Source: Haloarchaeobius salinus
GTDB lineage: Archaea; Halobacteriota; Halobacteria; Halobacteriales; Natrialbaceae
Length of the DNA stretch: 64,000 nt
Direction: 5' to 3'
Assembly: GCF_024464185.1 (NCBI RefSeq)
Contig: NZ_JANHAU010000001.1
Span: forward strand, 1-64,000
The notes under the pieces were generated by a model that saw only the letters and a list, made by a program, of their open reading frames with translations, had not been told where the DNA came from and ran no database searches. Below, piece by piece: positions 4,650 through 49,406 of this stretch (its first letter is position 1; each line of letters begins with the position of its first letter). The position numbers were made by a program, and so were the translations under genes.

Positions 4650-4883
4650 GTGGCGCGCGACTGGCGAGACTGCGCGAGCGGTGCGCGGTTCGGAGTGAGC
4701 GCGAGCGAGCGAGAACCGCGACTGCGAACGGGGAGCCTGCGACCGAGCGAATCGGCTGGGGAGGCACGAGGTGCGGTTCGTCGCTGTCGGGTGTCCCCGT
4801 GAGCGAGCGAGCGGAAGCCAGCGAGACGACGGAGGAGTCTCGCGCGGTCCCGGGAGTCGAGCGAGCAGGGGCGTTCTGGCTGT
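4650..4883 (+). repeat. structured intergenic repeat, copy A (degenerate)
   Basis: This copy shares landmarks with copies B-E in the same order: GTGGCGCGCGACTGGCGA at the start, GGCTGGGGAGGCACGAGGTG in the middle and GGGGCGTTCTGGCTG at the end. It lacks the GACTGAAAGGGGC block, the AT-rich palindrome and a perfect variable stem, so it looks decayed. It fills the gap between the convergent pyrD and pheT genes. No gene is evident in 4619-4959. Confidence 0.7.
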
Positions 4884-8527: not shown

Positions 8528-8817
8528 CAGCCAGAAAGCCCCGTCAGGCTACGCTCCCAGGACTCGCTGCGCTCCTCATTCTTGCGGTGCTTGCGTCGTC
8601 CGGGTCCGCGTAGCCTGCCGCCCCTTTCAATCCCGCCCGCACCGCGACCGCCCTCCATCCTCCCCAGCCTCCTGCGGTGCTCGCTGGCGCTGTGCTCCTC
8701 GTCCCTCGCACGAGCGTCTGCTCGCGGTCTCGCTTCGCTCGACACGCTCGCCAGACCGCGCGCCACCCGGTTGGTCGGTCGTCGATGGCGACCGTGGGTT
8801 TACAATATTTGTAAACC
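8528..8817 (-). repeat. structured intergenic repeat, copy B
   Basis: Read on the minus strand, it starts at the palindrome GGTTTACAAATATTGTAAACC (8797-8817; 21 bases, of which the outer arms are GGTTTACAA and TTGTAAACC). It continues with GGTGGCGCGCGGTCTGGCGA, reaches GGGATTGAAAGGGGC, and ends in GGGGCTTTCTGGCTG (8528-8542). The variable stem arms are 8543-8554 and 8608-8619, with ten perfect pairs (CAGGCTACGC/GCGTAGCCTG) plus a G-U and a G-C pair. It lies between pheS and the Orc gene, and nothing else is seen in 8238-8883. Confidence 0.85.
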
Positions 8818-28861: not shown

Positions 28862-29073
28862 CGCCCAGAAAGCCCCGACGTGCTCGTCGGCTGCGACTCG
28901 CTGCGCTCCTCATTCTTGCGGTGCTTGCGTCGTCTCGCTCGACGAGCACGTCGCCCCTTTCAGTCCCGCCCGACGCGACCGCACCGCACCAGCCCTCCCC
29001 CTCGACAACCACGCGCCTAGCGGCGCGGGTTGTCTTGGCCGTGTGGCTGGTGACGGTGTCGTCGAACCATCCA
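28862..29073 (-). repeat. structured intergenic repeat, copy C
   Basis: Read on the minus strand from the palindrome at 29074-29097, it has its own 5' hairpin (GACAACC...GGTTGTC with CGCGCC/GGCGCG inside). Then come GGGACTGAAAGGGGC, the variable stem CGACGTGCTCGTCG/CGACGAGCACGTCG (28940-28953 with 28876-28889, 14 perfect pairs), the conserved loop GACGACGCAAGCACCGCA, and the end GGGGCTTTCTGG (28865-28876). The 5' half differs from the other copies but the core is shared. Confidence 0.88.
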
Positions 29074-29097
29074 AGGTTTACAAATATTGTAAGCTTT
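29074..29097. promoter_or_regulatory. AT-rich palindrome shared by divergent repeats C and D
   Basis: The sequence contains GGTTTACAAATATTGTAAGC, near-palindromic about an ATA centre (TTACAA/TTGTAA arms). Closely similar palindromes head copy B (8797-8817) and copy E (49002-49026). Its location at the left of each unit and between C and D fits a bidirectional promoter or a protein-binding site. Confidence 0.75.
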
Positions 29098-29391
29098 CCA
29101 CCGTGGCGCGCGGCAGGCGAGCGTGCCGAGCGGAGCGAGGCCGTGAGCCTTTCGCGCGAGGGACGAGGAGCGTGGTTCGAGAGAGCAAGCTCTCTCGTCA
29201 TCCCGAAAATCTCCGATTTTCGGGCGACAGCGCCAGCGAGCACCGCAGGAGGCTGGGGAGGTTCGAGGGCGGTTGCGGTGGGTGGGGCTGAAAGGGGCTG
29301 CCTGGTCGACGAACCCGGACGACGCAAGGACCGCAGGCACGAGGACCGCAGCGAGTCCCGGGAGTCGACCAGGTAGGGGCTTTCTGGCTGG
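29098..29391 (+). repeat. structured intergenic repeat, copy D
   Basis: From the shared palindrome it runs through GTGGCGCGCGGCAGGCGA, a small hairpin GCC-GA-GC-loop-GC-GA-GGC, a nested two-hairpin insert (29172-29226) and GGCTGGGGAGG. It then reaches GGGCTGAAAGGGGC. The variable stem is 29298-29310 with 29364-29376 (12 Watson-Crick pairs and one G-U), closing a loop with GACGACGCAAGGACCGCA. It ends GGGGCTTTCTGGCTG at 29376-29390. Together with copy C it fills the gap 28757-29494, where I see no gene. Confidence 0.88.
29172..29226 (+). repeat. nested two-hairpin insert in repeat copy D
   Basis: This 55-nt block begins GTGGTTCGAGAGAGC. Hairpin 1 is CGAGAGAGC/GCTCTCTCG, then TCATC, then hairpin 2 CCGAAAATC-tcc-GATTTTCGG. 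Copy E has the same block at 49257-49318 with the same hairpin 1 but a different, still self-complementary hairpin 2. It is absent from copies B and C. In both places it follows GAGGAsC and precedes ACAGCG. Confidence 0.82.
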
Positions 29392-49001: not shown

Positions 49002-49366
49002 AAAGTTTATAATATTTGTAAACTTTGGTGGGCGGTAGCGAAGAATCAACCGGGTGGCGCGCGACTGGCGAACGTGCCGAGCCTTGCGAGGCCGTTCGCC
49101 GACGCTCGCGCGAGGGGCGAGAAGCGGAGGGAGCGCTAGCGACTGAGCATCGCAGTCGGTTGGGGAGGTACGAGGTGCGGTCGCGGTCGGGTGGGACTGA
49201 AAGGGGCGGCCGTCTCGACGACGGCAGACGACGAAAGGACCGCAGGTACGAGGACCGTGGTTCGAGAGAGCGAAGCTCTCTCGTCATCACGAAAGAGCGC
49301 GGAGCGCTCTTTCGAACGACAGCGAGTCTCCCGAGTCGAGACGGCCGGGGCTTTCTGGCTGTTTTC
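49002..49366 (+). repeat. structured intergenic repeat, copy E
   Basis: It starts with the palindrome AAAGTTTATAATATTTGTAA followed by ACTTT (49002-49026; arms AAAGTTTA/TAAACTTT). Then come GTGGCGCGCGACTGGCGA, a hairpin GCGAACG/CGTTCGC, and GGGACTGAAAGGGGC (49193-49207). The variable stem GGCCGTCTCGAC/GTCGAGACGGCC (49208-49219 with 49335-49346) is perfect. The end is GGGGCTTTCTGGCTGTTTT (49347-49365). A nested insert occupies 49257-49318. No gene is seen in 48887-49535. Confidence 0.9.
49257..49318 (+). repeat. nested two-hairpin insert in repeat copy E
   Basis: This 62-nt block begins GTGGTTCGAGAGAGC. Hairpin 1 is CGAGAGAGC-gaa-GCTCTCTCG, then TCATCA, then hairpin 2 CGAAAGAGCGC-gga-GCGCTCTTTCG. 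It matches the block in copy D (29172-29226) in design. Hairpin 2 differs in sequence but not in pairing. It interrupts the conserved loop GAGGACCGCAGCGAG of the parent repeat. Confidence 0.82.
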
Positions 49367-49391
49367 GGAGCTACCTGTTCTCGTCGATGGA

Positions 49392-49406
49392 GGGTCTTTC
49401 TGGCTG
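49392..49406 (+). repeat. second copy of the repeat tail after copy E
   Basis: GGGTCTTTCTGGCTG repeats the tail of copy E (GGGGCTTTCTGGCTG, 49347-49361) about 45 bp further on. It looks like a duplicated 3' end or the remnant of a neighbouring copy. Confidence 0.7.

Follow-up and report, generated by a model that had tools for sequence, protein, structure and literature searches.

Within a 64,000-nucleotide stretch of the Haloarchaeobius salinus genome (the window; its genome is G000), two copies of a repeat element, D (29103–29390) and E (49054–49361, both, like the inserts, hairpins, and target flanks below, on the forward strand), are each interrupted by a small block of two hairpins. A first-pass annotation of the window offered two readings of this block, a second-level element with a preferred target or a modular RNA domain, and the locus raises the question of which applies. 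We find that the D and E blocks are a real, recently moved DNA insert of two hairpins, and that most haloarchaea carry inserts of this kind.

Both blocks are present as first described. Comparison with empty sites sets their limits at 29173–29227 (55 nt) in D and 49258–49319 (62 nt) in E, slightly different from the 29172–29226 and 49257–49318 given before; an initial headline range of 29172–29318 had combined the first position of D with the final digits from E. The two inserts share one order, in which TGGTTCG is followed by hairpin 1, the linker CGTCATC(A/C)CG, and hairpin 2; a short tail with CGA at its end closes the block. Hairpin 1, formed by CGAGAGAGC and GCTCTCTCG, is common to D (29178–29197, identified by sequence and present in the DNA centroid fold) and E (49263–49283), whereas hairpin 2 (29202–29224 in D, 49290–49314 in E) is unlike in sequence between the two with pairing intact in both. 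Sequence and folding thus bear out both halves of the original description. Insert E ends in imperfect 7-nt terminal inverted repeats, TGGTTCG and CGAACGA; insert D, whose hairpin 2 is of the CCCG-AAAATC type, has lost the right one. Folded as RNA or as DNA, both inserts reach z-scores of −3.2 to −4.1 against dinucleotide shuffles, and none of 200 shuffles folds as well. The 15-mer GTGGTTCGAGAGAGC that heads the insert has seven exact copies in the 3.85-Mb genome, as counted from pattern searches and fetched stretches, all within the parent repeat family, against none for the reversed control. Copies B and C of the window's genome lack the block, as noted earlier, and so does copy A.

The sister species G003, whose flanking genes are 92–93% identical to those of the window, carries the same parent copies with an uninterrupted GAGGAGCGCAGCG. 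Its orthologs of D and E read GAGGAGCGCAGCGCC and GAGGAGCGCAGCGAG, both free of the block. In the window, the left target flank of D, GAGGAGCG (29165–29172), is separated by 55 nt from CAGCGCC, and that of E, GAGGACCG (49250–49257), by 62 nt from CAGCGAG. Aligning filled with empty sites, the check proposed at the outset, reveals clean junctions at both loci and no duplication of the target at either. The alignment also sharpens the flanks, previously given as GAGGAsC and ACAGCG: the shared context holds, and its exact form is GAGGA(S)CG^CAGCG, with the insert placed between G and C. Over 127 modules, the consensus of the left flank is GAGGA(G/C)CG, a sequence that was not fixed by the search pattern. 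A third genome, species G002, has the block in copy C, which is empty in G000 and G003. At D, a gain is favored because both relatives that keep the parent there (G002 and G003) are without the block. At E, the parent is absent from G002 and G004 and kept only in G000 and G003, so the direction of change is not polarized; the E parent of G003 contains two other two-hairpin modules, at other places. The block is therefore neither an invariant part of all copies nor an old shared segment, the two alternatives to insertion that had been named in advance, and the empty orthologous sites together with the same site motif at D and E support a second-level element with a preferred target.

Under the competing reading, the block would serve as a functional arm in a structured RNA that the parent encodes, and likewise in omega-RNAs, and would come and go as expansion segments do. 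This reading draws its strength from the hosts. The main stem of the parent contains 25 G.T against 6 A.C mispairs on one strand, an excess that folding of this strand, whether as RNA or as single-stranded DNA, would lead one to expect, and most pairs of the 3′ domain covary; on this pattern, the parent resembles a single-strand structure. The block is located in loops or junctions of structured hosts (the structure model of the parent places the E site in an internal loop, adjacent to a helix that contains an A.A mismatch), its orientation within the D/E parent is constant in 83 of 84 scorable cases, and paired stems with unlike hairpins would suit correct folding. The block itself departs from this picture. 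Its stems have 8 G.T and 7 A.C mispairs, with no strand bias, and its triloops (GAA/TTC, TCC/GGA, and AAA/TTT) occur about equally often in both senses, so neither strand is marked as functional. Its presence differs between orthologous copies in sister species, it recurs in unrelated hosts, and at locus L311 its orientation relative to tnpB is opposite, which contradicts the consistent sense orientation relative to host RNA that would favor an RNA route. Single-strand structure thus suits the parent better than the block, for which we regard an RNA domain as unlikely. We also considered and rejected an archaeal bulge-helix-bulge intron, which would have a 4-bp helix between 3-nt bulges at both ends: reading the junctions by eye gave only three of the four central pairs at D and E and no canonical motif at L294.

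The parent repeat has several features of its own. Strongly covarying in its 3′ domain (e.g., 29285–29390) and with strand-biased G.T pairs, it is without an Rfam match; searches of the window and ten loci at curated and relaxed thresholds returned only rRNA (archaeal 16S) and tRNA. Among 121 genomes of the family, 80 contain the exact core motif of the parent. The block and the parent are both present in named haloarchaea, and a literature search retrieved no paper that describes a haloarchaeal repeat with the end motif of the parent. An AT-rich palindrome, GTTTACAANNNTTGTAAAC, lies at 29076–29094 just upstream of parent D (as GTTTACAAATATTGTAAGC), at 49005–49023 upstream of parent E (as GTTTATAATATTTGTAAAC), neither assigned to a strand, and at 8798–8816. 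Judging by coordinates, roughly 16 of its ~22 places genome-wide are just upstream of parent copies, and it may serve the parent as an operator or promoter. Parent copies also occur as inverted pairs, divergent and separated by a few hundred bases, at 28862–29390 in the window, at C2:843289–843744 and C2:165789–166198 elsewhere in G000, and, in G002 and G003, at the locus orthologous to D. The 3′ end motif GGGGCTTTCTGG is doubled at 49347–49406, an arrangement with exactly 45 nt spacing found at six places in the genome. One parent-like stretch near a tnpB on a plasmid contig was taken as coincidence.

Insertion extends to hosts unrelated to the D/E parent. Three filled/empty pairs come from plasmid elements that have IS605-type ends; in two of these the insert lies downstream of tnpB. 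Each of the three inserts measures 60 nt, sits at G^C, and has no target duplication, adding support from unrelated hosts for a second-level element. In Natrarchaeobaculum (L291), the block lies 3′ of the TnpB coding end, a site that is empty in Halostagnicola, Halorubrum, and Haloarcula (L296–L298). In Natrinema (L294), it occupies the hairpin loop GGCTGTG-TGG^CACAGCC, empty in L299 and L300, where TnpB is annotated just upstream. The Haladaptatus block (L293) is contained in a 400-nt element whose relatives L301 and L302 are empty. A version with other stems occupies the L291 site in Halovenus (L303), where a further two-hairpin module lies 5′ of the block in the same region downstream of TnpB. 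At four more loci (L305, L306, L310, and L311), adjacent to tnpB or elsewhere, the block interrupts the hairpin CGGGGTCAAG^CCCCGAG, the empty form of which we infer. A second host type, built on a TTTTGC...GCAAAA hairpin, has the block at CG^CAGCGC (L147, L224, L252, L258, and L313). Targeting of a hairpin loop was directly apparent in only a few hosts; in the others, the insert falls at an internal loop or a junction within a predicted structure. From their position next to tnpB and from IS605 end sequences, the plasmid hosts are putative omega-RNA regions. In nearly all plasmid records inspected, the block carries no annotated features. Searches of phages gave no match to the block, and the one match on a viral contig, with its hairpins unpaired, was dismissed as chance.

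These hosts bear on whether the block could have arisen once inside the parent and spread solely by recombination between its copies. Modules of several families do recur at the same parent positions, and L065 (G000) and L115 (G003) share a second-family module with near-identical flanks. However, insertions in hosts without homology to the parent already contradict such an origin, and the two parent positions at D and E have only a short motif in common. We consider gene conversion as the sole route highly improbable; alongside insertion, conversion between parent copies may add to the spread of the block within a genome.

Other module families, exemplified by GGTCACGAGACGC...GGGGACG and GTTCTCCGCGA...GAGTCTCGCCAG, are likewise cleanly present or absent between orthologous parents (L069/L115, L014/L113, L012/L116, and L007/L093). 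Copy A (4713–4845) holds fragments of three such families, distinct from the D/E block. In L003 and L007, an extra two-hairpin unit lies within the linker of the block, giving a nested four-hairpin form of about 107 nt, and L125 (G003) has another two-hairpin unit at the same linker point. Nesting therefore reaches a third level.

Of 155 haloarchaeal genomes sampled, 127 match the 5′ half of the block, as do 53 of 60 genera, against a single genome matched by the control; a few of the matches listed are plainly coding sequence that does not pair, so the genome count is slightly high. Across 127 modules from many genera, the stem sequences vary widely and 97% of their pairs are Watson–Crick. 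The two hairpins of one module avoid being alike: no module of the 127 has the same stem class in both, where 22 were expected, and cross-complementarity of at least 6 bp was found in 2 of 108 distinct pairs, against 22 expected and a lowest value of 11 in 500 shuffles, which take no account of relatedness. Individual stems are found in the first and second position alike, an observation that speaks against simple descent as the cause of this unlikeness. Alike hairpins may instead mispair, or be lost via recombination between repeats, such that unlike ones would be kept.

Taken together, the block is probably a transposase-free small mobile element of haloarchaea, inserted without target duplication at G^C in palindrome-rich elements. 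Its two-hairpin form spans 55–66 bp in clean filled/empty pairs. The proposed element would comprise two hairpins and a conserved linker, usually with imperfect inverted repeats of 7 nt at its ends, T(G/C)GTTCG...CGAAC(G/C)A. It would enter its palindrome-rich hosts at their loops or junctions, between a G and a C, with SCG^CAG as the probable preferred site in the D/E parent. Inverted repeats, clean sites, and stems free of strand bias point to movement at the DNA level, presumably by an enzyme provided in trans; what is recognized as the target may be an extruded or single-stranded hairpin loop. Our preferred but unproven candidates for the mover are a single-strand transposase (Y1/HUH, IS200/IS605-type) or an IS110/IS1111-type recombinase. 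No linked transposase was found: the only Y1 gene detected in the genome, on contig C7, is flanked by IS605-type ends that are unlike the module. A link of the block or the parent to the genome's TnpA/TnpB elements was likewise rejected, the ends being unrelated.

The block ranks among the shortest mobile DNA units seen and is near-universal in haloarchaea. Its precise filled and empty sites render movement directly testable, and its stems, free to change in sequence yet still paired and still unlike each other, provide a natural record of hairpin evolution. Because the block lands in putative guide-RNA regions of TnpB nucleases, it may shape or disable them. A bolder proposal, which we hold only tentatively and think doubtful as a whole, is that of a pan-haloarchaeal class of hairpin pairs whose insertion would depend on recognition of hairpin loops in non-coding RNA genes and in other mobile elements, and which would time and again have rewired the omega-RNA regions of TnpB, with the two hairpins barred from cross-pairing and moved by new machinery.

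Several described systems resemble the block in part. Circular omega-RNAs have been reported in haloarchaea (PMC12558985), so host RNAs of that kind are expressed and processed, as observed in hosts other than those analyzed here. REPINs, or REP doublets, with their RAYT (Y1) transposases (PMC3116915) are like the block in being short, double-hairpin, intergenic, and presumably moved in trans. In contrast to REPINs, the block is without a GTAG or CGTC tag, has no partner Y1 that we could find, does not conserve its stem sequences, and inserts at G^C inside other palindromic elements. PATEs and IS605-type ends (PMC3119063) have subterminal palindromes and cause no target duplication, and the hosts of the block include IS605-type elements. 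Unlike a PATE, however, the block is the guest, not the host, and has short inverted repeats with no similarity to IS605 ends, a comparison of terminal repeats that covered the IS605-type elements of its own genome.

The closest counterpart is SMR-A of Haloquadratum walsbyi, described by Dyall-Smith and colleagues as ~110 bp long, with inverted repeats and no target duplication (PMC3119063); we found no paper on SMRs beyond Haloquadratum in the literature searched. SMR-A elements (HqIRS42, HqIRS43, and HqIRS55) are inserted in palindromes of IS605-type transposons and PATEs, and their mobilization was called 'enigmatic' (PMC3119063). Like SMR-A, the block is non-coding and inserts without target duplication, both at D and E and in three other hosts; SMR-A prefers near-terminal palindromes, and the block is met in hairpins and 3′ regions of IS605/TnpB elements. 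SMR-A has prominent terminal inverted repeats unrelated to known transposons; the block has imperfect 7-nt repeats at E, of which D retains the left, and their comparison with transposons covered the IS605-type elements of its own genome. These likenesses, together with the nested L003/L007 form, near 110 bp in length, would place the block within the described SMR-A families. Yet the two-hairpin form is far shorter, at 55 and 62 nt here, and SMR members are commonly >95% identical within a type, whereas the stems of the block differ freely. The block also has two explicit hairpins and a conserved linker, spans most of the sampled genera, and uses the D/E parent as an additional host. Membership in the described families is possible, although we think it improbable. 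Half as long and not sequence-conserved, the block, set against SMR-A as described, is better viewed as a new variant of the SMR-A kind.
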